Positions 1 through 54,628 of a stretch of DNA of 54,628 bases are shown here, piece after piece. The position numbers and the translations under genes are program-made. The notes beneath the pieces are model-generated. The model did not search any database and was not told the origin of the DNA. It was given only the letters and a program-made list of their open reading frames with translations. The number at the start of each line of letters is the position of its first letter. The first letter of the stretch is position 1. This DNA is from Tidjanibacter sp. GTDB lineage: Bacteria; Bacteroidota; Bacteroidia; Bacteroidales; Rikenellaceae. The DNA lies in assembly GCA_017390585.1 (NCBI GenBank), contig JAFPBB010000083.1, forward strand, positions 1 through 54,628, in the 5' to 3' direction.

Positions 1-7
1 ACAAGAC

Positions 8-127
8 GAGGAAATTTCGCGGAGGAAATTTTGTGCCAAATGAGAAAGCGGCTCCGCAGTTTGCTTGACGCAAATGAGGAAGCCGCTTTGGAAGTTTGGT
101 GCGAAATTTACCCGCGAAATTTTCTCG
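8..127. repeat. Long imperfect inverted repeat abutting the CotH gene stop
   Basis: The arms pair over most of their length. Bases 8-23 match the reverse complement of 112-127 at 15 of 16 positions. The next segments inwards (about 24-42 and 93-111) pair imperfectly, and an inner AAGCGGCT/AGCCGCTT pair closes a loop near 60-80. It begins directly after the TAA of the minus-strand CotH gene, so in that transcript it would be a long hairpin at the 3' end. It has no long T-run, so it may be a terminator-like or processing structure, or a dispersed repeat. Only one copy is visible here. Confidence 0.5.
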
Positions 128-2023
128 TTACCAGGAGGTGGTGAAGATATGATTAATATCCTCCACACGCTCAAAAAATATGGACTTCACACGCGCAGCA
201 GCCTCCGCATAGGGCAGACGCTCGTCGCCATTGACACCGCCCGTGTCCATAGGGTCCCACATTGCAAAGTTGCGCTCGGCAGAGGTGGCAAGGTAGGCAA
301 TCTGCTCATCCACAAAGCTCTCCAGAGCCAACAACTTGGGATAGATCTCCGTCCAACGCTCCTTGGCCAAAGCCTTGAACTCGGGGTCGCCAAACATACG
401 GCCATACCAGAGGGTGCCCTGGAGGTAGAGTCGCTGAGGGGCCCAAGTGGAGACATTGTAGGAGAAGGTGCCCCAGTCGAAATCCCAAATGGGGCCCGCA
501 GTGAGTTTGCCGCCACGGTCTTTGTGCATATAGACACTACCGGGGTTGCCAATTTCGTGGTTGAGACAGAGCTCAAAGACGAGCCAATAGTCGACAAAGG
601 ATTGGCGGTCGACGTAGTTCATATAGCCCGTTTCGGGGTCGAGATACTCCTTGGTGTGGATGAGAGCCTCGAGGTTGTTGATGTAGTTTTGTGCCCAGGC
701 AAACTGCTCGTTGGTGAGATCCTCCTCGTCGGGCGACTTGATTGCAAAGGGGAGGTTGCGAGGTGTGCGCCACTGCTTCTCGTTGTCGAAGTGGAAGTCG
801 AGCTCGAAGAGGTAGCCGCCCGTGATTGCCTCGCCCGAGTTGTCGGAGGGCTCCATCTCGGTGATGTTGACGCGGTTTTTGTCCACCCTGATGTGCTCGG
901 TCACGAGGTAGGTGCCCATATGGCGACCATTGAGGAAGAACTCGGCGTACTCATTGCGGGGGGTCCAAGCGAGGGAGGTCTGCTGCGAGACGCGGAAAGC
1001 GAGTCGGTTGCGGATCATACTCTTGTCCATAGCGTTGGCGAGCAGCACCCAGCGTTTGTGCTTGGGCATACCGAGGACCTCGGTTTTCGACTCAAACTTG
1101 AGTGCATAGGGTTTCTTGGGCCATCCCCAAGTGGTGTTGCCGCGTCCGCGGATGTTGACCACGGTCTCGGCCAGGTCGTCGAACTTACCCGCGCCATCGA
1201 TGGTGATGGTGGCCGATTTCCACACCTCCTTGGAGGTTACGGGGCCACGGTCGTCGGTGAAGATGGAGACGATGGGGAGTCCCGTGAAGTTGGCCAGAGC
1301 CACGGTGTAGGTTTTGGTACCAGCCTCATAGTCGACCACAAACTCCACGGGGGTGGAGAAGTTCACCTTCGAGATGCCACTCTCGATCACCTCGCCTCCC
1401 ACCTTGACGGTGGCGTTGCACTCAAAGCGAGGGATGAGATTCATATCCTGGAGAGGCAACTCGGTGGCACCACGGAAGGTGGTGGTGGTCGCTTCGTAGA
1501 CCATCGTGACGTCGTTGGTGAGCGAGGGGTTGTCCTCGCGGAGGAAGGAGATGCTCTTGAGAGTGAAATCCATACCACGGCTGAGGATGGCAATTGGCTC
1601 GGTGTAGAGACTCTTGCCCTCGGCACTCACCTTCACCCTCACTCGCTCGGCAAATTCGTCGGCCACAAAGGTGTCGGCCACAAAGAGTCGCCAGCGACCC
1701 GCGGTTTCGCTCTCTTCCACCTTGCGGAGTCGGAGAGTCTCGGGGCAATTGTCGTCCTTCTCGCCCACAAGTGCGAAGGCCTCGGGGGTCACAACCGAGT
1801 GTGGATGGTCGATGCGGAGGTAGATGGTGGCCTCGTCGGAGAAGTCGAGGGTGAGAGCCGTGGCTTCTGCCTCCACGGAACGGAACTCCACAACCTCGTC
1901 TGTGGTGCCCGGATTCTCGGGATCTTCAACATCGGGAGGGGTCACCGGATCATCCACGGGGGGAGGTGTGCAGGCCACAAAGAGGCCCAGTAGGAGGGTG
2001 GCAAGGAGTCTTGGTGTTTTCAT
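128..2023 (-). CDS. CotH kinase family lipoprotein
   Basis: This is a predicted surface or periplasmic lipoprotein of 631 aa. The start is the ATG at 2023, which begins a typical signal peptide (MKTPRLLATLLLGLFVAC) with a lipobox Cys followed by a Pro/Asp-rich linker. The frame is open further upstream, but that stretch does not look like a signal peptide. The CotH core is visible: RGRGNTTWGWPKKPY near residue 290, the KRWVLLANAMDKSMIRN segment after it, and DFDWGTF near residue 510. In spore-forming bacteria and some bacterial effectors CotH-fold proteins are atypical protein kinases. In Bacteroidales they are common secreted proteins of unknown substrate, so the activity here is inference. 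The N-terminal 200 residues look like beta-sandwich domains. It reads away from the glucan locus and follows another minus-strand lipoprotein gene 214 nt upstream. Confidence 0.85.
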   Translation of the reverse strand: MKTPRLLATLLLGLFVACTPPPVDDPVTPPDVEDPENPGTTDEVVEFRSVEAEATALTLDFSDEATIYLRIDHPHSVVTPEAFALVGEKDDNCPETLRLRKVEESETAGRWRLFVADTFVADEFAERVRVKVSAEGKSLYTEPIAILSRGMDFTLKSISFLREDNPSLTNDVTMVYEATTTTFRGATELPLQDMNLIPRFECNATVKVGGEVIESGISKVNFSTPVEFVVDYEAGTKTYTVALANFTGLPIVSIFTDDRGPVTSKEVWKSATITIDGAGKFDDLAETVVNIRGRGNTTWGWPKKPYALKFESKTEVLGMPKHKRWVLLANAMDKSMIRNRLAFRVSQQTSLAWTPRNEYAEFFLNGRHMGTYLVTEHIRVDKNRVNITEMEPSDNSGEAITGGYLFELDFHFDNEKQWRTPRNLPFAIKSPDEEDLTNEQFAWAQNYINNLEALIHTKEYLDPETGYMNYVDRQSFVDYWLVFELCLNHEIGNPGSVYMHKDRGGKLTAGPIWDFDWGTFSYNVSTWAPQRLYLQGTLWYGRMFGDPEFKALAKERWTEIYPKLLALESFVDEQIAYLATSAERNFAMWDPMDTGGVNGDERLPYAEAAARVKSIFFERVEDINHIFTTSW

Positions 2024-2237
2024 TGTTCGGGGTGTGTTGATGGTGAGAGTGGTACAAAACGACGGGCGACGGGTTGCCCGCCCTAAAACAGCCGAGGCTC
2101 CCCCTTTCAATCAAACTATGGGGAAGCCCCGACCTCCAAAAAACAGATGAGAGTGTGTGCAACTAACCTAATGTATTTCTTGTGGCCGCGGGCCCACCCA
2201 TCCGAGAAGGCCCACGGTCGTGTCATTCGTGGCCCTA

Positions 2238-4616
2238 TTAGTTGGCGGGCTGAGTAACCTTCACAACAAGACAGGGATCGGGGATGTCGTAGCCCTCATA
2301 GGCCTGTCCGGGTGCGGTTGCGGGGTGAACGTGGATGTAGCCCACGCGGAGTGCGCCTGTGTTGTTGGCCTCGGCGGAGTAGTTGAGCCAGTCGCCACCC
2401 ACACCTGCAGAGAGCCACGAGATGGGCCTACCCTCGCCATCGACATAGGAGTAGGTCATAGCGTGTGCCTCGTCACCGAAGGTGTTGTCGCGGGTGGAGT
2501 CCACCACGCCCGAGATGATCTTATAGACCGACATCCAGGTGACGCCCACATTCTGAACGCCATTGGGAGCAGCCTCAACATCGCGGCGCACGGAGAGGTT
2601 ATTGGGGTCGTTACCGAAGGTGTAGATTGCCACATTACCCTCCGTAGTGGCGGGCATCTGGGTAACCTCAATGGTCACTGCGGGGTTGCCGCCGCGGAGA
2701 GCCACCTCGGTGTCGCTCTCGGGATAGGAGATGGTCACCACACCCTTGCGCCAGCCATCTGCCTGGGAAGCGTCGACGGTGATGTAGAGGTGGTTGCCAC
2801 CGATGCGTGCGGTGATCCAGGGCACATCGACGCTGATCTCGAGCGAGGCGAAATATTTGGAGGTGCCATCGTCGGTCTGCATACCGTCGACCATAGCGAA
2901 GAAGTAGCCGAGGTCGCGCTCCACAACACCTGCTGCGGAGAGCACGGTCGAGGTGGAGAGGTTGGCGGTGGTGTAGTAGAGCTCGGTGGTCTCACCTGCT
3001 GCCTTGGCGGGCTGCTGCACCACGCGGAGGATGAAGGCGGTGTTGTCGGGCTCCATCTTGTAGGTATCGGTGTCGCCCTTGAAGGTTGCGGTGATGGTGG
3101 CCACACGCTCCTCGGTGGTCGAGGGGTTGGCACCCACAGCCTCGAGCTGGAGGTTGTTGGAGTTGCCGCCCACAACGGACACCTGACACCAATCGGCGTC
3201 GCTGGTCACCTCCACGGTCTTGAAGAAGGACTCGATAGCCTCTGCATCGGGCACAGCGGTGGCCGAACCGTCGAGGTAGGCAAGGAAGTAGCCGAGGCCC
3301 TTGGCGCCACTCAGACCGCCACCGGGGATGATGATCTCCGCATCGCCAAACCACTGGTAGGAGAGGGTGCTCACTGCCGAGGCACCATTCTGGGCCACAG
3401 CAATGGTTGCGACGATGGGGTTCTCGATAGCATAATCCTTGGTGGAGGGGGTGTAGATGATGTCGATGGTGCAGGTGCGGCCCTGCTCGGAGGTGTTGCG
3501 CGCCACATTCACAATGGGGTGGTTGTAGTTGGCAATGGAGCAGCTCACCCAATCGACAGCCTCGCCATTGTCGCTCTTGATGTCGAAGGAGATGGCGGAG
3601 TAGTAGTCGGCCTCGTAGTTGGTGGTATCCTGCACACCGTCAACAGCGGCGAGGTAGTAGCCCAAATCCTGCTGACCACCCATTGCGCTCATCTGGAGTG
3701 CGGTGGTGAGGTAGGTGGTGTCGTAGGTGACAATCTGTGCGTTGTTCTCGAGTCGGGAGGTGGCGTTCTTGAGGTCGAAGTAGATGTTGTGGATGGTGCC
3801 GGCCTCGAAGTTCACGTCGCCCTCCATCACGAAGGTATATTTTGCCACGTCGGTCTTGACGGTGTAGGTCACACCTGCGGAGGTGGCGGGGGCAATCTGT
3901 GCATAGAGACCCTTGGCGGAGTCCTTCTCGGCACCGATGGCATAGGTGGTAGCCAGGCCGAGCTCGATGGTGTTGGTGCCACCCTCGAGGGTTCCGCTCT
4001 TGCGGGCAAGGTCATACTTGAAGGTGCCGTTGATGGGCTGCGAGGCAGCAACCACCACAGAACGGATGGTCTCGCCCACATAGGCCTCCTCGGAGGAGTA
4101 GATGCCAAAGCGCACTACGGAGGTGACCAACTCGGAGGTGGCAACCACGGCGGTTGCCTCGGCCTCAATAGCCACAGGCTCCTTGCCCACGAGAGTGAAG
4201 TTCTCCAGCAGACCGGCCTCACGCTGGGTGGGCGCAGCTGCAATGTTGATGTTCACTGCGGTAGGAGTGAGCGTGGAGGCACGGTAGAAGGCTGCGAGCG
4301 AGGCAGTTGCCTCGGGCACCTCCACGGTAAAGACGGGTTTGCCACTCTCGAGCGAGAATGCCTTGGGTGCGTAGATTTTGCCGTCGGCGAGTGCAACAAA
4401 CTGGTTTGCATCGCCGTCGTTCCAACTGAACGCAGCGCTATCGTTGATGGCGGCGCGAGTCTTCACCACGGGCTGGAGTTCCACCTCGATGGTGCGAGTT
4501 TTGGCGGGCTCATCGGGGATGTCGGGAGTGGGAGGAGTGGGTTCGTCAACAGGCTGGCAAGCCACGATGGCGAGTGCGGCGAGGATGTAGGCGCCGATGC
4601 GGAAAAGTTTTTTCAT
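2238..4616 (-). CDS. Large repeat lipoprotein with fimbrillin-like N-terminus and BACON-like repeats
   Basis: A 792-aa lipoprotein (MKKLFRIGAYILAALAIVAC, then a Pro/Asp linker). Residues about 40-280 resemble the fimbrillin-like or DUF-type N-terminal domain seen in Bacteroidales surface proteins (a TRA..NDSAAFSWNDGD start). From about 300 there are four units of about 120-130 aa. Each opens with a signature such as DLGYYLAAVDG, GLGYFLAYLDG or DLGYFFAMVDG (the fourth is degenerate) and ends in a strand like VxVTQxPA, as in BACON domains. The same LGYxxxxVDG module occurs in the lipoprotein at 17280-19763, at the far end of the glucan locus. No catalytic motif is visible. A carbohydrate- or mucin-binding role is inferred from the BACON resemblance. 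It is divergent from the regulator at 4901. Confidence 0.75.
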   Translation of the reverse strand: MKKLFRIGAYILAALAIVACQPVDEPTPPTPDIPDEPAKTRTIEVELQPVVKTRAAINDSAAFSWNDGDANQFVALADGKIYAPKAFSLESGKPVFTVEVPEATASLAAFYRASTLTPTAVNINIAAAPTQREAGLLENFTLVGKEPVAIEAEATAVVATSELVTSVVRFGIYSSEEAYVGETIRSVVVAASQPINGTFKYDLARKSGTLEGGTNTIELGLATTYAIGAEKDSAKGLYAQIAPATSAGVTYTVKTDVAKYTFVMEGDVNFEAGTIHNIYFDLKNATSRLENNAQIVTYDTTYLTTALQMSAMGGQQDLGYYLAAVDGVQDTTNYEADYYSAISFDIKSDNGEAVDWVSCSIANYNHPIVNVARNTSEQGRTCTIDIIYTPSTKDYAIENPIVATIAVAQNGASAVSTLSYQWFGDAEIIIPGGGLSGAKGLGYFLAYLDGSATAVPDAEAIESFFKTVEVTSDADWCQVSVVGGNSNNLQLEAVGANPSTTEERVATITATFKGDTDTYKMEPDNTAFILRVVQQPAKAAGETTELYYTTANLSTSTVLSAAGVVERDLGYFFAMVDGMQTDDGTSKYFASLEISVDVPWITARIGGNHLYITVDASQADGWRKGVVTISYPESDTEVALRGGNPAVTIEVTQMPATTEGNVAIYTFGNDPNNLSVRRDVEAAPNGVQNVGVTWMSVYKIISGVVDSTRDNTFGDEAHAMTYSYVDGEGRPISWLSAGVGGDWLNYSAEANNTGALRVGYIHVHPATAPGQAYEGYDIPDPCLVVKVTQPAN

Positions 4617-4669
4617 AGTAGCAATGATAGGTTATTTTGGATTCGTGGAACAATCTGCTTTCTCGACAA

Positions 4670-4677
4670 CAAATTTA
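4670..4677 (-). promoter_or_regulatory. Possible -7 element for the minus-strand lipoprotein gene
   Basis: On the minus strand this reads TAAATTTG, matching the Bacteroidetes -7 consensus TAnnTTTG, about 54 nt before the ATG. No TTTG lies at the expected 19-20 nt upstream, so the assignment is weak. Confidence 0.3.
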
Positions 4678-4850
4678 ACCACTAATTTCGGCCCTTCCGA
4701 GCCCCCATAGACAAAAAGTAGACACCCAAGCCCACCAAAAACCAATAACACCCTGATAATGGACACATTAACCCCACCCTTCCCCCTCCAGAAAAGTAGA
4801 TTTGTCGGACCCGCCAACCAAATAAATCGGTACTAAAAAAGAGCTGATAT

Positions 4851-9086: not shown

Positions 9087-12000
9087 ATGAAACGACTATT
9101 GGTAATCCTTGCCTGCCTGCTGGCTTGTGGCCAAATGGTGGCGCAACGCACCGCCCCCATCTCGGGCGTGGTGACCGACAAGAGCAACGGCGAACCCCTG
9201 ATTGGCGTGACCGTGAGCCTCGAGGGTACCTCCACGGTTACTATCACCGACTATGCCGGTAAATACACCATCAACGTTCCTTTCGGCAACGCCACCAAAA
9301 AGGAACTCACCTTCTCCTATATGGGCTACAACGACCTCACCGTTGCTGTGACCCCCACTCAGAGCCGTCTCGATGTGGCCCTCGAAGTGGGAGCCGACGT
9401 GATTGAGGATGTTGTGGTGGTGGGCTATGGCACGATGAAACGCAGCGACCTCACGGGTGCTGTTGCCTCCGTAGACTCGGAGGATATCCAGCGGACCCCC
9501 GTGGCGACCATCGACCAGGCCTTTGCGGGCCGCATCGCAGGTGTCACCGTCAACTCCTCGACAGGTCAGCCCGGTGCTGCTGCCGAGGTGAGAATTCGTG
9601 GTATCGGTACGGTGAACAACTCCGCCCCCATCTATGTGGTCGACGGCGTGATCACCGAGGACATCGGCTTCCTCAACCCGGGCGACATCGCCTCCACCGA
9701 GGTGCTCAAGGATGCCTCGAGTACGGCCATCTACGGTTCGCGTGGTGCCAACGGTGTCATCATCGTCACCACCAAGACGGGTGCCAAGGACCGCGCTCCA
9801 CAGATCTCGCTCAGCGCCTACGCCGGCGTGCAAAATAGGTGGAGAAAACTCGACCTGATGGGCCGCGACGAGATGGCTGCAACACTCATTGCCATCGGCG
9901 GCGTGAAGTCGGAGATGAGTTTCTATGAGAAACACGGCTTCTACAAGTGGCTCAAGGCCTACCGACTCGGCAAATCGCCCTACTACCCCACCAACCTCGA
10001 CTACTCCACCGTGGAGACCGATTGGCAGGACGAGGTCTTCAGGGCCAACGCACCCATCCACAACTACCACCTCTCCGTGGAGGGCGGTAGCAGCAAGAGT
10101 CAGTACTCCTTCAGTGCGGGCTACTTCTCGCAGGACGGCACCATCATCGGCTCCAACTACGAGCGTCTGACCCTCCGCCTGAACTCCTCCTACAACCTCA
10201 ACAAGTGGCTCAAAGTGGGCGAGAGCCTCTCGCTCATCACCTCCTCGTCGCGTTGGGCAATGAACAACAGCAGCAGCGCCGGTGCCTCCATCCTCTCGGC
10301 AGCCCTCGCAATGGCTCCTTGGGACCCCACCCACTACCCCGAAGGCTCGGTGAATGTCGATGGCAAGGACCTCAGCGGTGAGATCGCCGCAGGCTCCAAC
10401 TTCAAGAATGTGGTCAACCCCTTCTCGATGGTGGAACACTCCCACCCCAACAACTCCGACCAACGACTCCTGGGCAACATCTACCTCGAGGCCAACCCCA
10501 TCAAGGGTCTCACGTTCCGCTCCTCGGTGAGTATGGACCAGAACACCTCGATGAGCCGCAGCTACTCCGACAAGTATCTCCACTCCGACTACGACAAGGC
10601 CGACAAAAACTTCATCTCCTCCAACATCGGTGTGGGCCGCACAATGTTCTACGAGAACACCCTCACCTATGCACTCGAGCAGGGTGACCACCGCTTCTCG
10701 GCAATGGTGGGTCAGACCACCGAGGAGTATACCTATTATTCTATGGGCGGCGCAGGCGCCTCGATTGCCAACCCCTCCGAGAATAACTGGTATCTCAACC
10801 AAGCCACCGAGGACAAGACCGAGTCGGGCGACTCGGCAGCACGCACACGCCGCTTCTCGCTGCTCGGACGACTCTTCTACAACTACGCCGACCGCTATAT
10901 GGCCACCATCAACTTCCGCGCCGACGCCTCCTCGAAATTCCCCGAGAACCTCTGGGGCTACTTCCCCTCTATGGCTCTGGCGTGGCGACTCTCGGAGGAG
11001 TCCTTCCTGGAGGATGTGGATGCTGTGGACAACTTGAAGGTGAGGTTCGGTTGGGGCCGCATCGGCAACGATAAGATTGCCGAGGGCGCCTTCACCCAAT
11101 CGGTGTTCTCCTCGAGCAACACCTTCACCGGCTACCCCTTCGGCACCAACCAGGAGCTGGCCACCGGCTCGACCATCCTCACCTACGTCAACAACAACGG
11201 ACGCTGGGAGGCAACCGAGCAGCTCAACTTCGGCGTGGACTTCAGCCTCTGGAACAACCGCCTCTACGGTACGGTTGACATCTTCGAGCGCAACACCTAC
11301 GATATGCTCCTCTCTGTAACCGCACCCGCACACGTCGGCAACCGCTATGCCGCAACCGCCAATGTGGGCACCGTGCGCAACCGAGGCGTTGAGCTCACCA
11401 TCGGCCACGGCGGCAGCTTCGGCAACGGCTGGGAGTATGACGTGAACATCAACGGCTCGGTCATCTCCAACCAGCTCACCCGACTCAATGGCGGCGAGAG
11501 GGTCTACGGCGCCTACACCATCTGCGACGAGGGCCTGCCTCTCTACTCCTTCTGGGGCTATGAGTATGAGGGCATCTACCAGAGCGACGAGGAGGTGAAG
11601 CAGCACCAATACAGTGTGGAGGCTGTGACCGAGAAGATGGGCGACGCACGCTACAAGGACCAGAATGGCGACGGCGTCATCAACGACGACGACCTGGTGG
11701 CCATCGGCAGCGCATTCCCCTGGCTCACCTATGGTGCCAACTTCTCGCTCCGCAAGGGCGGTTTCGACGTGAGCCTCTTCTTCCAGGGCGTCTATGGCAA
11801 CCAGATCTACAACGCCGTAAGGCTCCGCACCGAGGGCGACGGCACCCAATCGACCCTGAGCACCACTATGCGCGACGTGTGGAGCTCCACCAACCTCACG
11901 GGCACCATCCCCAACCCCGGAGCCTCGGGTTCGAGCCGCAACTTCGAGTCGTCGAGCCGCTATGTGGAGGACGGCAGCTACCTCCGCCTCAAGAACCTCC

Positions 12001-12207: not shown

Positions 12208-13761
12208 ATGAAAAAATCAACAATAATCTTGGCACTCATTGCCACCGCAACACTCCTCGGAGGTTGCAACGACTGGCTCAGGGAAGACGCACCCGGCAAG
12301 ACCGAGCTCGACGACTTCTTCACCAGCGGACAAACCGCACTCCAGGCTGTCAACGCAGCCTACTACCCTATGGCGTGGGAATACCACGGCACCTACTACC
12401 CCGAATGGTTTGTGGGCGATGTGGCCTCCGACGACGCGGTGAAGGGCGGACAGAACCTCACCGATATGGCCGATGCCTACGACATCGAGAACTTCAAGAC
12501 CGTGGCCAGCAACGGACTCCTCTTGGACTACTATAGGGCCCAGTATCAGGGCATCTCGAGGTCCAACTTCGCACTCACCTACATCCCCACCCTCGCCACC
12601 GACGAGAGCTTCACCGAGGAGACCAAAAATCGCTACCTCGGCTAGCTCAAGTTCCTCAGGGCCTTCTACTACTTCCGCCTGGTGAGAATGTTTGGCGATG
12701 TGCCCCTGGTGGACTTCATCATCGACTCCTCGGAGAATTGGAAACAACCCCGCGCAAAGAGCGAGGAGATCTACAACTTCATCCTCGAAGAGCTGGAAGA
12801 TGCAGAGGGTATGCTCAAGGAGAAGAGCCAGATGAGCGCCGAGGAGCTGGGTAGGGTGACCAAAGGTGCTGCACAGGCTCTGCTGCTGAAGGTCAACCTC
12901 TATCGCAAGAACTACGACGCAGCCATCAGTTGGGGTGAGAAGATTATCGCAAGTGGCGAATACTCGCTCAATGCCAACTATATGGACAACTTCTACCTCG
13001 AGGGCGAGAATGGCCCCGAGTCGGTCTTTGAGATTCAGTATGCCGAGGACCCCACCAGCGACTACGGCGAGGGCAACGGCTTCACTCGCGGCACCTTCAC
13101 CGTGATTCTCACCCGTTCGCGCTCCACGGTGCTCTGTCAGGGCAACGCAGGTTGGGGCTTCAACAAGCCCACTCAGGACCTCTACGACGAGTATGAGGAG
13201 GGCGACCCCCGCAGGGACTACACCATCATCAACCCCACCGACGCACAGATCGAAACCCCCGCACAGGAGATCTATCTCGGTTGCCGCTATATGAGCAACA
13301 AGTATGCTCTGCGCAATCAGGATGGCAACTACATCGCACTCTCCCACGCCACCCGCGCACCCATCAACCACAAAGAGATTCGCTACACCGACGTGTTGCT
13401 GATGTATGCCGAGGCCTGCATCGAGAAGGGAGAGAATCTCGCCGCGGCCAAAGATGCCATCAACGAGGTGAGGGCCCGCGTGGGTCTGGAGCCTATTGCG
13501 AGTGCCACCCGCGAAGCACTGCGCCACGAGCGTAGGGTGGAGCTGGCTATGGAGGGTCACCGCTGGTTTGACCTCTGCCGCTGGGGCATCGTGGGCGAGA
13601 CTATGAATGCCTACAAGGCCAAGTATGGCGCGAGCAACCCCAATGGCAACACCGAGGGCGCCGAGATGGCCGACTTCGTTGTGGGCAAACACGAGCTTAT
13701 GCCCATCCCCTCGGAGGAGGTGCGCCTCGGCGGTCTTACGCAGAACAACGGCTACAATTAG
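12208..13761 (+). pseudogene. SusD-family glycan-binding lipoprotein interrupted by an in-frame TAG
   Basis: The reading frame from 12208 to 13761 encodes a full-length SusD (517 codons) in one frame, but codon 146 is TAG (12643-12645). It sits between NRYLG and LKFLRAFYYFRLV, a region where SusD proteins normally carry a single residue such as Gln or Glu. A C-to-T change of CAG would create it. The rest is well preserved: lipobox LGGC, DDFFTSGQTALQAVNAAYY, RYTDVLLMYAEA, and a C-terminal HERRVELAMEGHRWFDLCRWG motif. TAG is used as a normal stop elsewhere in the window (GH3, GH16, GH128, enolase), so recoding is unlikely. The choices are a recent nonsense mutation, a base-call error, or low-level readthrough. 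Restart at the ATG at 12682 would give a 359-aa fragment without a signal peptide. Confidence 0.88.
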
Positions 13762-22690: not shown

Positions 22691-22699
22691 TGGTGCTGT

Positions 22700-22805
22700 T
22701 AGGGGTGCCGCGCCCAAAGCTGTGTGCCACACAAGGCTCATCGCACAAAGGCCGGCTGAGATTATACCCTCCGAACCTGATATGTATAATGACAGCGCAG
22801 GGAAA
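22700..22805 (+). promoter_or_regulatory. TPP (thi-box) riboswitch aptamer
   Basis: The conserved thi-box segments occur in order: GGGGTGCC at 22702-22709, GGCTGAGA followed by TTATACCC, then GAACCTGAT, and the 3' part ending in AGCGCAGGGAA. The P3 arm (about 22710-22750) is somewhat extended. It precedes a thiamine operon, as expected. TPP binding should promote the downstream terminator at 22848 and switch off thiM-thiE/tenA-thiL-thiD. Confidence 0.95.
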
Positions 22806-22847
22806 CGGTAGTCTTATGGTCGCATACTATAATTGATGTATAGACGC

Positions 22848-42549: not shown

Positions 42550-43263
42550 ATGAGTGGAAGTATTTTTACCTCTTCAATCGGCAAGAAGATGTTTATGAGC
42601 ATCTCGGGCTGTATCCTCATCCTGTTCCTCACATTCCATATGTGTATGAACTTGGCATTAATCTTCTCCGACAGCGCCTACAACGCTATCTGCGGTTTCC
42701 TCGGCGCCAACTGGTATGCCGTTGCTGCAACCGCTGCATTGGCACTTGTTGTGTTGCTTCACTTTGGTCTTGCCATCGTTCTGACCATCCAGAACCGCAA
42801 GGCTCGTGGCACCATCCGCTACCGCGTTACCGAGCGTGAGAACGGTGTTGAGTGGTCGTCGAAGAATATGCTGGTACTTGGCTTCGTTGTAGTCATCGGC
42901 CTCATCGTTCACCTCGCCAACTTCTGGCTCAAGATGATGTACACCGAGCTTATGGGTGCCCACGAGGTTGCTCTCGGCGCCGCTACCGTAGCTCCCACCG
43001 ACGGTGCTGCAATCGTTCGTTTCTACTTCAGCCAGTGGTACTATGCCGCCATCTACATCGTATGGTTCGTAGGTCTGTGGTTCCACCTCACTCACGGCGT
43101 GTGGAGTATGATGCACTCGCTCGGTCTGAACAGCAAAGTGTGGTTCAAACGTATGAAATGCATCTCCACCATCGTTGCTACCCTCATCTGCGGCGGCTTC
43201 GCTCTGGTGACCATCGTACTTTTCTTGCAGGGCAACGGCATCCTGCCCAACCCCCTTTTCTAA
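42550..43263 (+). CDS. frdC: Fumarate reductase/succinate dehydrogenase cytochrome b subunit
   Basis: A 237-aa integral-membrane subunit that anchors the flavin and iron-sulfur subunits and passes electrons from menaquinol. Five hydrophobic segments are visible, beginning with MSISGCILILFLTFHMCMN. Histidines placed for haem b ligation include those in TFHMC, LLHFGLA, IVHLANFW and WFHLTHGVWSMMHS, as in the dihaem Wolinella/Bacteroides type. There is no FrdD partner, which fits the single-subunit type. It is first in the operon frdC-frdA-frdB (27-nt gap to frdA). Confidence 0.94.
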   Translation: MSGSIFTSSIGKKMFMSISGCILILFLTFHMCMNLALIFSDSAYNAICGFLGANWYAVAATAALALVVLLHFGLAIVLTIQNRKARGTIRYRVTERENGVEWSSKNMLVLGFVVVIGLIVHLANFWLKMMYTELMGAHEVALGAATVAPTDGAAIVRFYFSQWYYAAIYIVWFVGLWFHLTHGVWSMMHSLGLNSKVWFKRMKCISTIVATLICGGFALVTIVLFLQGNGILPNPLF

Positions 43264-43290: not shown

Positions 43291-45237
43291 ATGATTAAGC
43301 TTGATTCCAAAATCCCCGCAGGCCCCATCGAAGGCAAGTGGACAAAACATAAAGGTGATATCAAAGTCGTTAGCCCCGCTAACAAACGCAAACTCGACGT
43401 TATCGTTATCGGTACCGGCCTCGGTGGTGGCGCTGCTGCTGCTTCGCTCGGTGAGCTCGGCTACAACGTAAAAGTATTCTGCATCAGCGACTCGCCCCGT
43501 AGGGCCCACTCGATTGCAGCTCAGGGCGGTATCAACGCCGCAAAGAACTATCAGAACGACAACGACTCCGTCTACCGTCTGTTCTACGACACCATCAAAG
43601 GTGGTGACTACCGCGCACGTGAGGCCAACGTCTACCGTCTGGCCGAGGTTTCGAACCTCATTATCGACCAGTGCGTGGCTCAGGGCGTACCCTTCGCTCG
43701 CGAGTACGGCGGCCTTCTGGCCAACCGTTCGTTTGGTGGCGCACAGGTATCGCGTACCTTCTATGCCCGCGGTCAGACCGGTCAGCAGCTCCTCTTGGGT
43801 GCCTACGCAGCCCTCAACCGCCAGATCGCTGCCAAGACCGTGAAGAGCTACCCCCGCCACGAGATTCTCGACATCGTTCTCATCGATGGCAAAGCAAGAG
43901 GTGTGATTGCTCGTAACCTCGTTACCGGCGAGCTCGAGCGCCACGGCGCACACGCTGTGGTTATGGCAACCGGTGGCTACGGCAACGTATTCTTCCTCTC
44001 GACCAACGCAATGAACTCCAACGGTTCGGTGGCTTGGCAGGCATTCAAGAAAGGCGCCGCCTTCGCTAACCCCTGCTTCACTCAGATCCACCCCACTTGT
44101 ATCCCCGTACACGGCACCCAGCAGAGCAAACTCACCCTTATGAGTGAGTCGCTCCGTAACGATGGCCGCATCTGGGTTCCCAAGAACCTCTCGGATGTGA
44201 AGGCTCTCCGCGCAGGTGTTAAACAGCCCTCCGACATCGCCGAGGAGGATAGGGACTACTACTTGGAGCGTCGCTACCCCGCATTCGGTAACTTGGTTCC
44301 CCGCGACGTGGCTTCGCGTGCAGCCAAGGAGCGTTGCGATGCAGGTTATGGTGTGAACGAGACCGGCCTCGCCGTTTACCTCGACTTCAAGACCGCCATC
44401 AACCGCCTCGGTATCGACAAGATCCGCGAGCGCTACGGCAACCTCTTCCAGATGTATGAGAAGATTACCGCAGTGAACCCCTATGAGCAGCCTATGCAGA
44501 TCTACCCTGCTGTTCACTACACTATGGGTGGTACCTGGGTTGACTACAACCTTATGACCACCGTTCCCGGTCTCTACTCCATTGGCGAGGCCAACTTCTC
44601 GGACCACGGTGCAAACCGCCTCGGTGCTTCGGCTCTGATGCAGGGTCTGGCCGACGGCTACTTCGTGCTGCCCTACACCATCGGTGACTACCTCTCGAAG
44701 GAGATCCAGTCGCCCAAGGTGGACACCAACGATCCCGCATTCGAGGAGGCAGAGAACGCCATCCGCGCTAAGATCGAGAAACTCTACGCCATCAAGGGTA
44801 ACCAGACTCCCGACGAGCTGCACAAGAAACTCGGTTGCGGCATTATGTGGGAGAAAGTTGGTATGGCTCGTACCAAAGAGTCGTTGGAGCAGGCTATCGT
44901 TGAGATTCAGGCCTTGAGGAAAGAGTTCTGGAGCGACCTGAAACTCACCGGCAAGCCCGATGAGTTCAACCAGGAGCTTGAGAAGGCACTCCGTCTGGCC
45001 GACTTCCTGGAGCTCGGCGAGCTTATGGCACGCGACGCACTCAACCGTAACGAGAGCTGCGGTGGCCACTTCCGCGAGGAGTTCCAGACTCCCGAGGGCG
45101 AGGCTCTGCGCGACGACGAGAACTACGCCTATGTAGCCGTATGGGAGTATCAGGGTGAGGACAAAGAGCCCGTGCTCTACAAAGAGCCTCTCACCTTCGA
45201 GACCATCCACCTCCAGCAGCGTAACTACAAAGACTAA
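43291..45237 (+). CDS. frdA: Fumarate reductase/succinate dehydrogenase flavoprotein subunit
   Basis: A 648-aa catalytic subunit that reduces fumarate to succinate during anaerobic growth, or the reverse. It has an FAD-binding [17 protein letters not shown] near residue 40, the covalent-flavin segment [39 protein letters not shown] with an active-site Arg, and [12 protein letters not shown]. The C-terminal helical domain has [19 protein letters not shown]. Length agrees with Bacteroides enzymes, which are longer than E. coli FrdA. The complex lies on the cytoplasmic face of the inner membrane. Confidence 0.97.
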
Positions 45238-45307: not shown

Positions 45308-46051
45308 ATGAATTTAACACTTGAAATCTGGCGTCAGCCCAACGCCAAAGCAGAAGGCAAATTCGAGACCTATGTGGTTAAGGATGTTTCGACCGAGAGC
45401 TCGTTCCTCGAGATGCTCGATATCCTCAACAACCAGCTTATCCACGAGGGTAAAGAGCCCGTAGCATTCGACCACGACTGCCGCGAGGGTATCTGTGGCG
45501 CTTGCTCGCTCCGCATCAACGGCCACGCACACGGCCCCGAGAGCGAGGTGACCACCTGCCAGCTCCATATGCGTAACTTCAAGGACGGTGACAAGATCGT
45601 CATCGAGCCCTGGAGGAGCCGCGCATTCCCCGTAATCAAAGACCTCGTGGTGGACCGCACCGCCTATGAGACCATCCTCCAGGCAGGTGGTTTCGTGTCG
45701 GTGAACACCGGCGGTGTGCCCGATGCCAACGCTATTCCTATCGCCAAGGACGACGCTGAGGAGAGTATGGACGCAGCTGCTTGTATCGGTTGTGGTGCTT
45801 GCGCCGCTACCTGCAAGAACGGCTCGGCAATGCTCTTCGTGGCTGCACGCGTTTCGTCGCTCGCCAAACTGCCCCAGGGTCAGGTGGAGGGCGCACGCAG
45901 GGCCAAAGCTATGGTTGCCAAGATGGACGAGCTCGGCTTCGGTAACTGCACCAACACCGGTGCTTGCCAGGCAGAGTGCCCCAAAGGCATCACCATCAAC
46001 CACATCGCTCGCCTCAACCGCGAGTACCTCAAAGCTAAATTCCGCAGCTAA
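45308..46051 (+). CDS. frdB: Fumarate reductase/succinate dehydrogenase iron-sulfur subunit
   Basis: A 247-aa electron-transfer subunit. The N-terminal ferredoxin domain carries the [2Fe-2S] ligands in [16 protein letters not shown]. The C-terminal domain carries the other cluster ligands in [17 protein letters not shown] and [15 protein letters not shown]. It bridges FrdA and the cytochrome b subunit. It follows frdA after 70 nt and is followed by a hairpin terminator. Confidence 0.97.
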
Positions 46052-46169: not shown

Positions 46170-47477
<1,308 letters not shown>

Positions 47478-49123: not shown

Positions 49124-50431
49124 CTATTTCTTGCTCTCCTGCTCCTTGATTACTCTCTCGTAGCCGGCCTTGATCTTGGCTGCGGCATTGTTCCACTTGA
49201 GTCCTGTAACCTCCTCGAGACCCTTGCGTGCAAAGAGCTGTCCGAGCGCGGGGTAGGTCACCAGACCATAGATGGCGTCTGCCATAGAGTCCACATCCCA
49301 GTAGTCCACCTTCACAGCATAGTCGAGAACCTCGGCCACGCCGGACTGCTTACTGATGATGGTGGGCACATTGGACTTCATAGCCTCCAGGGGAGAGATG
49401 CCAAAGGGCTCACTCACCGATGGCATAACATAGACGTCGCTGAGGGCAAACATCTTCTGCACATCGGCACCCCTGAGGAAGCCTGTGAAGTGGAAGCGGT
49501 CCGAGATACCCAGACGAGCCACACGGCGGATGACGTGATTCATCATATCGCCGCTACCTGCCATCACAAATCTCACATTGGGGGTACGTTTGAGCACCTT
49601 CGCAGCCGCCTCGACAAAGTAGTCGGGACCCTTCTGGAAGGTGATACGTCCGAGGAAGGTGACAATCTTGTCCTTCACGCCGCGCTCCTCCTCGATGTTG
49701 CTCTCGGCAAAGCGCACCGCGTTGTGGACAGTGATTACCTTCTCGGCGGGGATACCATACTTATTGATAATAATATTGCGTGTGAGGTTGCTCACAGCCA
49801 TAACCAAGTCGGCAGCCTCCATACCACCTCGCTCGATGGCATAGGTCTGCGTGTTGATGTTCTCGCCACTACGGTCATACTCCGTAGCGTGCATATGGAC
49901 CACGAGTGGTTTGCCCGAGACCTCCTTTGCAGCAATACCTGCATAGTAGGTGAGCCAGTCGTGGGCGTGGATCACGTCGAACTGGCCCTCCAACTCGAGT
50001 GCCACCTGACGGGCAACAACCGCATAGCGTGCAACCTCCTCAAGCAGGTTGGCGCCATACTTACCGGAGAAGTTGTACCTCTCCCTCCACACGTCACCCT
50101 CGTGGTGGATGTGTCCCACCTTCTCGCTGCGGTGCCTTTCGGTTTCCCACTGCTCGGGCGAGATGTAGGGGACCATATTGGAGTTGATCTCCATAAACTT
50201 AACGTGCTTCCAGATTTCGCTGTCGGCCTCGCCGCTACGATAGACTGCATCGACATCGCTGGCATTGACCACACGGATGAATCGCTGGTCCTCATCACCA
50301 TAGGCCTTGGGGACAACAAAAATCACTTCCACATCGTTGCGAGCCAAGCCGCGGGTCAGACCATAGCAAGCCGTACCCAGACCGCCGGCAATGTGGGGAG
50401 GAAATTCCCAACCAAACATTAATACTCTCAT
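49124..50431 (-). CDS. GT4-type glycogen-synthase-like glycosyltransferase
   Basis: A 435-aa GT-B-fold retaining glycosyltransferase. The N-terminal MFGWEFPPHIAGGLGTACYGL and the HAHDWLTYYAG segment are those of starch/glycogen synthase-like GT4/GT5 enzymes. The C-terminal nucleotide-sugar site has FLGRITFQKGPDYFVEAA and the E-x7-E region in SEPFGISPLEAMKS. The gene pairs with a debranching enzyme (5-nt gap) and GH57 amylase, the arrangement found around glycogen metabolism in Bacteroidales, so it probably elongates glycogen from UDP- or ADP-glucose. Donor specificity cannot be read from the sequence. Confidence 0.88.
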   Translation of the reverse strand: MRVLMFGWEFPPHIAGGLGTACYGLTRGLARNDVEVIFVVPKAYGDEDQRFIRVVNASDVDAVYRSGEADSEIWKHVKFMEINSNMVPYISPEQWETERHRSEKVGHIHHEGDVWRERYNFSGKYGANLLEEVARYAVVARQVALELEGQFDVIHAHDWLTYYAGIAAKEVSGKPLVVHMHATEYDRSGENINTQTYAIERGGMEAADLVMAVSNLTRNIIINKYGIPAEKVITVHNAVRFAESNIEEERGVKDKIVTFLGRITFQKGPDYFVEAAAKVLKRTPNVRFVMAGSGDMMNHVIRRVARLGISDRFHFTGFLRGADVQKMFALSDVYVMPSVSEPFGISPLEAMKSNVPTIISKQSGVAEVLDYAVKVDYWDVDSMADAIYGLVTYPALGQLFARKGLEEVTGLKWNNAAAKIKAGYERVIKEQESKK

Positions 50432-50436
50432 AGCGA

Positions 50437-52371
50437 CTATTTTTTCTGTTTTTCAATCATCTCGTTAATACGCAAAAGGGCTCCCACGCTCCAAGCCTGG
50501 GAAATCGAACCGCGAGCATCGTGTGGTGGATCACCCTCGTAGATCTCCGAAATGGAGCCGATACCCTTGGTGCTCATCTCCTCCTTGAAGGCCTCCAGAA
50601 TCTCCTCGGCCCTATAGAGGAAGCTCTCGCCCTTCACATCGAAGCGAGCCTTAACGTAGTGCTCCAGGGGCCACACCCACACCGTACCCTGATGGTAGGC
50701 CTCGTCGCGCGAGCGCTGATCGCCATTGTAGCGTCCCTTGTAGAGGGGGTTGCGGGGCGAGAGAGTACGCAGACCGCGGGGGGTGAGCAGGTGGCGCTTA
50801 ACAACGTCGGCCACAGCCTCCTGCTGCTCCAGAGAGAGCATCTTGAAGTTAAGCGAGCAAGCCACAATTTGGTTGGGGCGGATGAAGTTGTTGGCACCAT
50901 CGACACCCACATAGTCGGCCAGATAGCCATCCTCCAGCCAGAAATGCTTCAGGAACGACTCCTTGGTCAGTGCGGGAAGTTCCTTCCACTCCTCCACAAA
51001 GGCCTTGTCCTTAGCCTCGGTGGCGCACTCGAGTGCATAGCAGAGTGCGTTGTACCAGAGGGCATTGACCTCAACCTGGTAGCCATCCCTGCCGGTCACG
51101 GGTTTGCCATCCACGCAAGCATCCATCCAGGTGATGGCATACTCGGGATGCGAAGCCCAAATCAGGCCATTGGAGTGGAGTGCAACCACGCCGTCGATAC
51201 CGCGACGGTAGGCCTCCAGAAGCTCTTTGACCTTGTCGCCATAGCGTTTCCAGGTCTTCTTCCTGCCGATGTGCTCCTCGAGTTGCTGGAGGGTCCACAC
51301 AAACCAGAGGGGGGCGTCGACGGAGTTGTAGGCGCTACCCACATTGGGGAAGAGTCCGTTTTTCATCTCCGAGGTGATGGTGTCGAGCACATCCTCACAA
51401 GCCTGCACATCGCCCTGCGAGAGGGTGATACCGGGCAGCGAGATGAAGGTGTCCCTACCCCAGCGACCAAACCAAGGATAGCCTGCAACAACCTCGCTAC
51501 GGCCGCCCGAACGGGTCACAAATTGGTGTGCAGAGTGGCGGAGCAGCGAGATGAAGTCGGTCTTGGCATTACGCTCGGAGAGCTCCTTCTCGAATCGCTC
51601 ATTGAGAGCTTCGGGGTCGATCTCCTCGAGCGAGGCGGAGAAGACGAGGGGTTTGTTCTTTTCGAGTTTCACCTCGAAGTAGCCGGTTGTGAGCAGGTCT
51701 TCGTGGTGGTCGTAGCCACGTTTAGCCTCCTCGGCATACTCGAAGTCGTAGTACCAATCGGGGGCTGCTGCAAACTCCGCATAGGGGTCGGAGCACTGCA
51801 TATAAAGGTAGGGGAAATCCTCATAGAGGCGGCACTTAACACCACCTTTAACATCCCACGAGTGGCCGTTGGCATACATATTTGCTTTGCTCAACGAGTG
51901 TTTCTCTCGGAAGGCGAGGAAGGGGCGCAGACGGAGTGTGGTCTCGCTCTTTGCCTCCAAGAGGGTGTAGCGAATAAAGAGTCTCGAGTGTGAGGTGTGC
52001 TGACGCCAGAGGATCTCCTTCTTGAGCAGCACGCCGCCCACACGATAGAGAATCGTGGGCGTAGGGTTGTACTCGAAGTCCACAATATACTTGTGACCGC
52101 GAGGCTCATAGATGCCGGGGAAACGGTGTAGAGCGAGGTTGAAGTGCTGACCGTGCTGAATGACGGTCTCATCGAGCGACGAGAGGAGCACATAGCTCTT
52201 GTCGTCACCCTCCTTGATTGGGCAGACCATAAGTCCGTGATACTTTCGTGTGTTGCAACAGACGATGGTGGTGCTCATATAGCCACCCGTTCTGTTGGTC
52301 GAAAGCATCTCGCGTTGGAGCGAATACTCGAGGTTACCCAGACTGTTTTTGTCGAATGTTAGTACTGCCAT
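50437..52371 (-). CDS. Glycogen debranching enzyme (amylo-alpha-1,6-glucosidase type, GH133-like)
   Basis: A 644-aa cytosolic enzyme. The N-terminal beta-rich domain has NRTGGYMSTTIVCCNTRKYHGLM-type sequence characteristic of bacterial and archaeal debranching enzymes. The C-terminal (alpha/alpha)6 domain has the hallmark GYPWFGRWGRDTFISLPG near residue 300, later NALWYNALCYALE, and a C-terminal QGTVWVWPLEHYV. It removes alpha-1,6 branch points left by the phosphorylase. The start codon is preceded by an unusually strong Shine-Dalgarno sequence. It is separated by 5 nt from the downstream GT4 gene, so the two are co-transcribed. Confidence 0.93.
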   Translation of the reverse strand: MAVLTFDKNSLGNLEYSLQREMLSTNRTGGYMSTTIVCCNTRKYHGLMVCPIKEGDDKSYVLLSSLDETVIQHGQHFNLALHRFPGIYEPRGHKYIVDFEYNPTPTILYRVGGVLLKKEILWRQHTSHSRLFIRYTLLEAKSETTLRLRPFLAFREKHSLSKANMYANGHSWDVKGGVKCRLYEDFPYLYMQCSDPYAEFAAAPDWYYDFEYAEEAKRGYDHHEDLLTTGYFEVKLEKNKPLVFSASLEEIDPEALNERFEKELSERNAKTDFISLLRHSAHQFVTRSGGRSEVVAGYPWFGRWGRDTFISLPGITLSQGDVQACEDVLDTITSEMKNGLFPNVGSAYNSVDAPLWFVWTLQQLEEHIGRKKTWKRYGDKVKELLEAYRRGIDGVVALHSNGLIWASHPEYAITWMDACVDGKPVTGRDGYQVEVNALWYNALCYALECATEAKDKAFVEEWKELPALTKESFLKHFWLEDGYLADYVGVDGANNFIRPNQIVACSLNFKMLSLEQQEAVADVVKRHLLTPRGLRTLSPRNPLYKGRYNGDQRSRDEAYHQGTVWVWPLEHYVKARFDVKGESFLYRAEEILEAFKEEMSTKGIGSISEIYEGDPPHDARGSISQAWSVGALLRINEMIEKQKK

Positions 52372-52377
52372 ATCTCT

Positions 52378-52383
52378 CTCCTT
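52378..52383 (-). promoter_or_regulatory. Strong Shine-Dalgarno of the debranching-enzyme gene
   Basis: The minus strand reads AAGGAG, 6 nt before the ATG at 52371. Most genes in this window have A-rich starts without such a motif, as usual in Bacteroidetes. It confirms the chosen start. The 200-nt gap up to 52571 holds no clear promoter; it contains a 12-bp palindrome (AATCCGCGGATT) near 52455-52470. Confidence 0.6.
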
Positions 52384-52571
52384 ATTCTGTGTGTTATAAG
52401 ATTTGTTTTATGGTATTTGTTTAGGTTTCGGTCTTGGTAGGTTAGTCGTAGGTCAATCCGCGGATTGCCCAGCCACCCTACGGAGTGGAGGGAGGGGGGC
52501 TTGTGGGCCACCCCACCCTATTCCGCAGCGTGTTGATTATGTATTCTGTGGTCTCCGGTTGGCGGCCCTCA

Positions 52572-54628
52572 TTAGGCCCACTTAACCAGAGCGAAGTCCA
52601 TCCTGTGGGGGAGCTTGCTGTTCTTGGGGAACACCCTGAGGGCAGCGTCGTAGGAACCGGTGTGCTCCATCAGTGCGTCTACGGCGTAGACAACCTTGGA
52701 GCCATCCACTGCCACCACCTCGAGCTCCACCTTCTCGGCGATCTTCACATCCTGGCCGCTCTCAATCTGGCTGGCAAGGAGCAACTCAACGCCGATATCC
52801 TCGGGCTTCAGGCCGTCGATATCGAGGGTTGCCTCGAAGCGATATTTGCTACCCACAACCATTGTCTGCTTCGACATATCGGCCTGGCGGGTCTCGAGCA
52901 CCTTCACCTTATCCCAAGCGGCGCTCACCCTACGTTTCCAAGCGGCAATCTCGCGTGCCAAGAGGTAGTCGCTCTTAACGATCTCGCGGTGGCGCTCATA
53001 GAGGGGGTTGTAGAACCTCTCCTCATAGTCGGTGAGCATACGGTTGGTGGTGAACTCCGAAGCGATGTCGGCAATACAGCTCTTCATACTCTCAATCCAG
53101 CCGCGAGGCATACCGTTCTCATCGCGGTTGTAGTAGAGGGGCACGATCTCCTCCTCGATGGTGCGGTAGATCATCTCGGCGTCGAGCTCGTTCTGGTGGT
53201 TCTGGTCGGTGTAGGTGCGCTCCATAGGCAGCATCCAACCGGCGCCCTCCTTGTAGCCCTCAACCCACCAGCCGTCCAAGACGCTGAACTGCATAACGCC
53301 GTTCATCACAGCCTTCTCACCGCTGGTACCCGAAGCCTCCAGAGGACGGGTGGGGGTGTTCAGCCAGATGTCCACGCCCTGAACCATCTTCCTCGAGATG
53401 TCCATATCGTAGTTGGGCAGGAAGAGAATCTTACCCGCAAACTCGGGCATCTGCGACACAGCAACGATGCGTTTGATGAGGTCCTGACCGGGGATATCCT
53501 GGGGGTGGGCCTTACCTGCAAACACAAACTGCACGGGGCGCTCGGGGTTGTTGACCAGAGCCGAGAGGCGCTCGAGGTTGGTGAAGAGCAGGTGGGCACG
53601 TTTGTAGGTTGCAAACCTTCGTGCAAAACCGATGGTCAGCACATCGGGCTTGAAGTTCTCCTTCACGGCCACCATCTGGCGAGGCGACACCACGGGCGAC
53701 TTCGACTTGTCGCTCATAATCTTGCCAACGGCCTTATAGAGGCGCTGTTTGAGTGCCAAACGAGCCTCCCACAACTCTGCGTCGGGAATCTCTTTGGCCT
53801 TCTGCCAAGCGGGAATATCATACTGCTCCTTGCTGAAGCCCTCGGCAAAATATTTGGCGTAGAGCTTGCGGAGGATAGAGGAGGTCCAGGTGGGGAAGTG
53901 AACACCATTGGTCACATAGCCGATGTGCAACTCATCCTTGAAGTAGCCGGGCCACATACCGCCCAACACATCTTTGCTCACCTCGCCGTGGAGCCAGCTC
54001 ACACCGTTGACCTCCTGCGAGAGGTTGCAAGCCAGGAAGCTCATCGAGAACTTCTCGCTGGGATCGTTGGGTCTGGTCTTACCGAGGTTGATGAACTGCT
54101 CCCAGGTGATACCGAGCCTATCGGGATAGTGGCTCATATACTGGCGAATCATCTGCTCGGGGAAGGCGTCGTGGCCTGCAGGCACGGGAGTGTGGGTGGT
54201 GTAGAGCGACGAGGAACGCACAACCTCGAGTGCCTCGCTGAACGAGAGGTTCCTACCCTTCACATAGTTGTGGATGCGCTCCAGACCGATGAAGGCTGCG
54301 TGGCCCTCGTTGCAGTGGTAGATATCCGACTTGATGCCCAGGGCATTGAGTGCGCGGATACCGCCCACGCCCAGCAGCAACTCCTGCTTGAGACGGTTCT
54401 CCCAATCGCCACCATAGAGGTGGTGGGTGATGCTCCTATCCTCCTCGATGTTGAGCTCGTGGTCGGTATCGAGCAGGTAGAGGTCGGTGCGGCCCACCTC
54501 GCACTTCCAGATGCGGGCAGTGACCGTACGGCCGGGAAGAGCCACCTGCACCGAGCACCAGTTGCCGGTCTCGTCACGCGCAGGCGAGATGGGGAGTTTC
54601 AGGAAGTTCTGTGCCTCATAGGCAGCCT
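52572..54628 (-). CDS. glgP: Alpha-glucan (glycogen) phosphorylase, 5' end beyond the window
   Basis: The frame runs open to the last base of the window, so about 685 C-terminal residues are present and the start is missing. It is a GT35 phosphorylase of the shorter alpha-glucan-phosphorylase group, releasing glucose-1-phosphate from glycogen or maltodextrin. Visible motifs: YHCNEGHAAFIGLER, TTHTPVPAGHDAF, HIGYVTNGVHFPTW, FARRFATYKRAHLLF, VQFVFAGKAHPQD, and the PLP-site region LEASGTSGEKAVMNG with Lys. An apparent GTG start at 54551 is internal; the sequence upstream (LKLPISPARDETGNW) continues the protein. It precedes the debranching enzyme by 200 nt. Confidence 0.93.
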   Translation of the reverse strand, partial: AAYEAQNFLKLPISPARDETGNWCSVQVALPGRTVTARIWKCEVGRTDLYLLDTDHELNIEEDRSITHHLYGGDWENRLKQELLLGVGGIRALNALGIKSDIYHCNEGHAAFIGLERIHNYVKGRNLSFSEALEVVRSSSLYTTHTPVPAGHDAFPEQMIRQYMSHYPDRLGITWEQFINLGKTRPNDPSEKFSMSFLACNLSQEVNGVSWLHGEVSKDVLGGMWPGYFKDELHIGYVTNGVHFPTWTSSILRKLYAKYFAEGFSKEQYDIPAWQKAKEIPDAELWEARLALKQRLYKAVGKIMSDKSKSPVVSPRQMVAVKENFKPDVLTIGFARRFATYKRAHLLFTNLERLSALVNNPERPVQFVFAGKAHPQDIPGQDLIKRIVAVSQMPEFAGKILFLPNYDMDISRKMVQGVDIWLNTPTRPLEASGTSGEKAVMNGVMQFSVLDGWWVEGYKEGAGWMLPMERTYTDQNHQNELDAEMIYRTIEEEIVPLYYNRDENGMPRGWIESMKSCIADIASEFTTNRMLTDYEERFYNPLYERHREIVKSDYLLAREIAAWKRRVSAAWDKVKVLETRQADMSKQTMVVGSKYRFEATLDIDGLKPEDIGVELLLASQIESGQDVKIAEKVELEVVAVDGSKVVYAVDALMEHTGSYDAALRVFPKNSKLPHRMDFALVKWA

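Follow-up and report, generated by a model that had tools for sequence, protein, structure and literature searches.

Extreme avoidance of CATG in a Tidjanibacter lineage and its probable origin in long-lasting restriction

Why does a stretch of 54,628 nucleotides of bacterial DNA contain not one copy of the tetranucleotide CATG? The stretch, which as a whole we call the window, lies on contig JAFPBB010000083.1 of a Tidjanibacter sp. assembly (GCA_017390585.1; genome G000). An original prediction, made from the letters of the window, had reported this absence and attributed it to strong and long-lasting selection, exerted most simply by a restriction system of NlaIII-like specificity. We found the case to be a real and extreme instance of known restriction-site avoidance. 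The cause is probably long CATG-specific restriction, although no CATG enzyme was found in the window's own genome.

CATG in the window and in the rest of its genome

We counted all 256 tetranucleotides in the window and compared them with maximal-order Markov expectations. No CATG was found, compared with 233.6 copies expected in 54,628 bases (Poisson P about 1e-101), which was the lowest observed/expected ratio of any tetranucleotide. Because CATG is palindromic, both strands of the window are clear of it. The predicted absence was thus borne out by the count that had been proposed as its check, and the other palindromes that the prediction had named do occur in the window.

We took 30 open reading frames (ORFs) as genes (46,818 bases) and treated the remaining 7,885 bases as noncoding. 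In 200 within-gene shuffles of synonymous codons, CATG appeared 160.1 times on average (standard deviation, 8.6; minimum, 140), compared with zero in the actual coding sequences, and the noncoding bases contained none against 21.0 expected. The depletion in coding DNA therefore goes beyond codon and amino-acid usage (0 against 160.1), as is characteristic of restriction-site avoidance. The loss acts at the DNA level, in coding and noncoding regions alike.

Codon choice displays the avoidance directly. At positions preceding ATG where a synonymous choice between C and T is present, the third base was T in 157, G in 34 and A in 34 cases and never C (0/225), whereas at positions not before ATG it was C in 7,917 of 12,252 cases (65%) in the window genes. 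Histidine before G was encoded by CAC in 88 of 88 cases, compared with 227 CAC and 28 CAT elsewhere, and an NCA codon never preceded TG (0/98), compared with 519 of 3,488 codons elsewhere. CATG is thus at zero in all three reading phases. Under the genetic code, a synonymous change can remove CATG in every one of the three phases, and protein sequence accordingly never demands it. Two examples of codon switching in the original prediction, AGC ACC ACT ATG and CAT ATG TGT ATG (42637-42648), were both correct. The features concerned are as follows:

1..54628, both strands: stretch free of CATG (0 against 233.6; none in either coding or noncoding DNA)
11859..11870, plus strand: codon-switch example AGC ACC ACT ATG (Ser-Thr-Thr-Met)
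12642..12645: sole CTAG of the window, from the tetranucleotide count

We extended the count to a sample of G000 (1.75 Mb, 84 contigs, 84.7% complete) consisting of the window and 45 further stretches, 648 kb including separators and 4 stretches reading N, so that about 36% of the genome was available as letters. This sample contained 31 CATG against 2,659 expected, so that a palindromic site is strongly under-represented across the genome, far from its expected frequency. Six of the 31 residual copies fall within the first 2.4 kb of a single contig (L266:1-2400, G000:C13), an island of low guanine-cytosine (GC) content that is probably a recent arrival; its two genes resemble RloA and RloB by eye only, and gene names assigned by eye, here and below, are provisional. 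Two more lie within the first 110 bases of another stretch (L016, G000:C1). There, an rpoD-like fragment recognized by eye passes into a reading frame unrelated to it (L016:1-200), and this contig end is probably an assembly chimera.

CTAG was also scarce, with 1 copy in the window against a Markov expectation of 139.0 and 21 in the G000 sample against 1,392; in coding DNA of the window, its count of 0 is to be compared with just 18.9 by synonymous shuffling. It is low in nearly all members of the genus, whether or not they avoid CATG. This matches the general pattern in Rusinov et al. 2015 (PMC4687349), in which CTAG is low in most genomes regardless. Other palindromes were moderately low in the window, namely GATC (79 of 219 expected), CCGG (115 of 248) and GTAC (83 of 157).

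Distribution of the avoidance among relatives

We scored the genomes of the family by dividing the count of SSCATGSS by that of the reversed control SSGTACSS (the SS ratio) and defined an avoider as a genome with a ratio of at most 0.25; GTAC in the control pattern is itself variable, and the ratio reaches 6.8. By this cut-off, 67 of 268 family genomes avoid CATG. CATG avoidance is a lineage trait, and the selection that the original prediction had described as strong and long-lasting is supported at the codon, genome and lineage levels. The succinate dehydrogenase flavoprotein (SdhA) of G000 has as its nearest labelled match a protein of an uncultured Alistipes (84% identity), a member of Rikenellaceae, Bacteroidales.

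On their SS patterns, the genus, represented by 23 genomes, falls into avoiders and non-avoiders. An enolase tree, which is unrooted, placed the 19 genomes with an enolase match (G020 by a 94-residue piece; G003, G006, G008 and G012 had no match and are unplaced). It separated a 12-genome avoiding group from a 7-genome normal group with a support of 1.000. The SS ratios were 0.56 to 1.18 in the normal group and at most 0.07 in 10 of the 12 members of the avoiding group, the exceptions being G019 and G010. G019 is the sister, that is, the closest sampled relative, of G000 (support, 0.987). The following genes and sites of the window were used in the comparison:

42550..43263, plus strand: ORF immediately upstream of the flavoprotein gene, with no Pfam match, which we take by its position to be sdhC; used in the ortholog comparison; holds CAT ATG TGT ATG
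43291..45237, plus strand: succinate dehydrogenase/fumarate reductase flavoprotein gene (sdhA); used in the ortholog comparison
45308..46051, plus strand: ORF downstream of sdhA, by its position presumably sdhB; used in the ortholog comparison
46185..47477, plus strand: enolase gene, the basis of the genus tree
46206..46208, plus strand: relic site at enolase codon 7 (His), CAC before G in 11/11 avoiding-group genomes compared and CAT (giving CATG) in 7/7 of the other group
46563..46568, plus strand: relic site at enolase codon 126 (Gly), GGT before ATG in 11/11 avoiding-group genomes, including the two exceptions, and GGC (giving CATG) in 7/7 of the other group

For relatives, we counted CATG in 8- to 30-kb stretches taken from between one and three contigs. 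The copies observed, relative to those expected, were 0/84 in G013, 0/50 in G018, 1/121 in G022, 5/70 in G005 and 7/73 in G014; in a 409-kb sample of G005, which is 99% complete, 48 were present against 1,642. Among the 32 sites listed before methionine codons in sdhC, sdhA, sdhB and enolase, C was seldom found in avoiders, with two exceptions in G017, four in G014 and one in G005. The concatenated alignment creates false CATG at gene junctions (sdhC 236, sdhA 647, sdhB 246), which were discounted; further false copies may stem from adjacencies made by alignment gaps.

The avoidance is weakened in the two exceptional members, with 78 CATG of 127 expected in G019 (0.61) and 31 of 63 in G010 (0.49). 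Both lack ICEA, an NlaIII-type methylase and any match in four methylase families; these genes are likewise missing from G000 and G005, which nevertheless still avoid CATG. Because G019 and G010 have the same relic codons as the avoiders at positions 7 and 126 of enolase, we take their ancestor to have been an avoider, and we favor the view that they have partly regained CATG after selection was released. On six genes, G019 has C at 16 of 29 sites before methionine where G000 has T, compared with 53 of 323 T sites elsewhere. In the ortholog comparison, G019 and G010 have C in common at 8 of 29 sites before methionine (Fisher P 0.05). This rate above the control and these common C sites speak against a release; we nevertheless read the excess of T to C changes before ATG as a return to preferred codons, with some old sites possibly retained. 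We also considered that G019 keeps an ancestral CATG-rich state. This was not preferred, as the relic codons distinguish 11/11 genomes of the avoiding group from 7/7 others.

Among 80 Bacteroidota loci fetched with SdhA, 5 had CATG at less than one-quarter of expectation (L137, L139, L142, L190 and L191). One of these, 20.7 kb of Capnocytophaga felis KC07070 (L190), contained CATG 0/51, GGCC 0/22, GCGC 0/18 and GATC 5/55 (observed/expected). This strain could possibly serve as a culturable model for CATG avoidance.

Restriction cassettes in relatives

NlaIII and iceA1 cleave CATG. We searched the family for the ICEA endonuclease family (PF05315) and found it in 10 of 268 genomes, all 10 among the 67 avoiders (hypergeometric P 5.6e-7; product of within-genus probabilities, 1.6e-5); three of the ten are among the 23 genomes of the genus. 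The carriers have SS ratios of 0.3% to 20.5%. A cognate system is thus found in close relatives and none in G000 itself. From the family assignment and the 10/10 association, the cassettes of the relatives would be expected to cut CATG.

As in the NlaIII/ICEA systems (iceA1, HpyI), the ICEA endonuclease is paired with a D12 methylase, which all ten loci carry at the ICEA gene or close to it (cut by contig ends in G148). Unlike in those systems, 8 of the 10 loci carry, by eye, an additional upstream methylase gene similar to the scanned example in G017 (N6_N4_Mtase). By eye, 3 of the 10 have an extra gene of 376-381 amino acids (aa), of which the one scanned displayed weak EVE and NucS similarity below the cut-offs. 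The G017 ICEA protein had no convincing relative in PDB. In the five readable loci (G012, G013, G017, G132 and G285), the flanking genes differ by eye, and the cassette therefore looks mobile. Pooled cassette DNA contained 21 CATG against 70.2 expected, compared with 10 against 178.6 in the flanks. The cassettes are thus less purged than their flanks, and the present copies accordingly look newer than the avoidance surrounding them.

We further searched the family with a profile of the cassette D12 methylase (A1), which had matches in 23 of 268 genomes. Close matches (>550 bits) were confined to avoiders, 11 in number: nine of the ICEA carriers, G286, and G105, where the match lies near a contig edge. 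In the tenth carrier, G148, also an avoider, the match was split over two contigs. More distant matches were found in the avoiders G035 and G161 and in genomes that are non-avoiders by the cut-off, such as G115, G244 and G001. The distant D12 match of G161 (238.8 bits) was left uncounted, since the same arrangement is seen in the non-avoiders G146 and G244.

G286 avoids CATG and lacks ICEA, and its methylase adjoins a 304-aa protein, which we regard, from this arrangement, as a candidate CATG endonuclease of an uncharacterized family. It had no Pfam match above the cut-off, no PADLOC match at 0.001, no convincing PDB match and no match among plasmid or phage records, and it matched in just 2 of 268 family genomes, one of them partially:

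L099:2496-3410, minus strand: gene of the 304-aa protein in G286
G035:C1:922540-922797: partial match to the 304-aa protein in G035

G035, a single contig of 3.15 Mb, avoids CATG (18 against 364; 0/58 in 20 kb). A match to residues 4-98 of the 304-aa protein (44% identity; 46.7 bits) precedes the start of its methylase (358.9 bits) by 24 bases, an arrangement that we read as a putative CATG system whose nuclease has decayed while the methylase and the avoidance were kept. Three other avoiders (G012, G008 and G006; L069, L071 and L073) have an apparently orphan N6/N4 methylase gene in a common neighborhood, where by eye it is flanked on one side by phosphoesterase-like and ClpB-like genes and on the other by a RarA-like gene. 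The single orphan methylase scanned was similar, below the cut-off, to an adenine-specific methylase model.

Further palindromes (GATC, ACGT, GGCC and CGCG) have been lost in some lineages and not in others, as observed in stretches of G004, G005, G006, G011, G013, G015, G018, G019, G021, G022 and G035. This patchiness suggests that many different restriction systems exist in the genus and family. For example, G018 has a DpnII-type locus with a D12 methylase, a DpnII endonuclease (Pfam match) and a second methylase, and GATC is low there (0/27 and 0/36); this is a parallel inside the genus with a target different from CATG. G014 has look-alike ORFs of that locus, with D12 and N6_N4 matches, and GATC counts of 12/58 and 4/63. 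G021 has two C5 methylase matches and has lost GGCC and CGCG, whereas G007 has three and has lost neither, so that the link of C5 methylases to these losses is only suggestive.

Elsewhere in the window, a thiamine pyrophosphate (TPP) riboswitch lies at 22691-22820, just 5΄ of genes with thiamine salvage and synthesis domains.

Probable cause of the avoidance

We consider it likely that CATG was purged by orthodox Type II restriction-modification systems specific for this site, carried on cassettes that are acquired and lost again. Such systems would have entered the ancestor of the group long ago and would since have been gained, lost and replaced as mobile cassettes. Among them would be cassettes of the NlaIII/ICEA type and, probably, one or more further endonucleases that work with a methylase of that kind. 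Each unmethylated CATG would carry the risk of a cut, and selection against such self-cleavage would remove the site; with a synonymous escape available for every coding CATG, the purge could become nearly total. Cutting at CATG would then be the selective force, and the window's lineage would have had a CATG system in the past or would have one that escaped detection.

The study of Rusinov et al. 2015 (PMC4687349) gives avoidance in 850 of 1,774 orthodox Type II pairs at a cut-off of Kr ≤0.78, and describes traces of lost systems as common. Our case resembles those described there in that a 4-bp palindrome is lost where relatives carry a Type II system, and in that traces outlast the system. 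It differs in its depletion of about 99%, far past that cut-off, in being lineage-wide, in that the enzyme is detectable in some members alone and in that a close sister genome is partly regaining the site. Among the titles listed by our searches of a library with few subscription journals, none concerned CATG loss in this group.

Several observations weigh against this explanation. The G000 assembly has neither ICEA, nor a methylase of the A1-profile or NlaIII type, nor the 304-aa protein, and no match to the families D12 (PF02086), N6_N4 (PF01555), C5 (PF00145) or N6_Mtase (PF02384). The search of the window's own genome for a CATG methyltransferase or nuclease, proposed together with the original prediction, thus found none in an assembly that is 85% complete; the NlaIII-like system envisaged there is supported by the ICEA carriers, with no counterpart found in that assembly. 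G005, a 99% complete avoider, lacks the same ICEA, methylase and 304-aa genes, as do G019 and G010. After G035 and the 12 avoiders that have ICEA or a close methylase match are set aside, 54 of the 67 avoiders have no clear detectable CATG system. Enzyme and avoidance are not neatly matched for GATC either, which is also low in the genus members G015 and G019, both without a D12 match. Among 18 viral contigs with ICEA-like genes, the observed/expected ratio of CATG lies between 0.67 and 1.08 in 17 (34-43% identity), and the remaining one, with the closest ICEA relative (66% identity), has 7 copies against 29.9. Finally, CATG reaches the highest density of all motifs (9,036 per Mb) in Helicobacter pylori, a species in which the CATG methylase M.HpyI is universal (PMC10423294), so that on this account an NlaIII-type system alone does not force avoidance.

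If restriction cassettes did purge the window's lineage, their enzyme may be encoded in DNA missing from the assembly or by other strains; it may have disappeared very recently; or it may be of an unrecognized kind. In the portions inspected, about 34% of the G000 genome in addition to the window and about 22% of that of G005, we read the low-GC islands by eye and saw no CATG candidate there; they contain an RloA/RloB-like pair and an Mrr-like gene. The G019 branch, at about 0.06 substitutions per site on one locus, bears on the timing. Should the release of G019 postdate its divergence from G000, CATG returns fast, and the level of about 1% in G000 would imply selection until very recently; this argument about the rate of return rests on one conserved locus.

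It is possible, though we hold it doubtful, that avoidance in G000 and most of the 54 avoiders is maintained by an active CATG system that goes unrecognized, with a methylase outside the searched families or in the missing 15% of the assembly. The SS ratios of G000 (3.6%) and G005 (3.3%) are as low as those of the ten cassette carriers, the 0.61 of G019 on its short branch would point to very recent selection on G000, and the 304-aa candidate without a Pfam family is present in G286. No such system was found, the 304-aa protein is nearly confined to that genome, and the islands that were read gave no candidate.

Equally tentative is the converse, that the window's lineage recently lost a resident system, of which the absence of CATG is a mere trace. 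Traces of lost systems are documented by Rusinov et al. 2015 (PMC4687349), the G035 methylase follows a merely partial 304-aa match, and the CATG-bearing start of one G000 contig suggests that unpurged DNA is tolerated there. If G019 sets the speed at which CATG returns, this reading would require very recent, independent losses in many lineages.

Mutational decay without selection, such as deamination of a methylated C in CATG, could account for the TATG found at many avoider sites, but is very improbable: histidine CAT before G in the other group is CAC in avoiders, and alanine GCA before TG in G019 is GCT in avoiders, neither of which deamination yields, and under decay protein-constrained sites would remain CATG, whereas the count is zero in all three phases. 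An artefact of assembly or library preparation, for example DNA cut at CATG before sequencing, might be suspected from the fragmented G000 assembly but can practically be dismissed, because orthologous codons are present and differ synonymously rather than being missing, and because the pattern recurs elsewhere, in the single-contig G035 and in Capnocytophaga felis KC07070.

More speculatively, and in our estimate improbably, most CATG-free genomes of the family, that of the window included, might be kept clear by an unrecognized CATG restriction system, of which the 304-aa protein is perhaps one member, or by cassettes passing through so often that the genomes stay purged in advance. If this were true, purged genomes could accept a CATG nuclease with little self-damage, and site elimination rather than methylation would provide most of their self-protection.

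With its avoiding group, its normal sister group and two members regaining CATG, the genus offers a natural experiment in which one could measure how strongly, and for how long, restriction enzymes exert selection; it also predicts where to look for CATG enzymes that are still undiscovered. Together with the lineage-specific loss of GATC, ACGT, GGCC and CGCG, this makes the genus a possible model of how defense systems shape genome composition.

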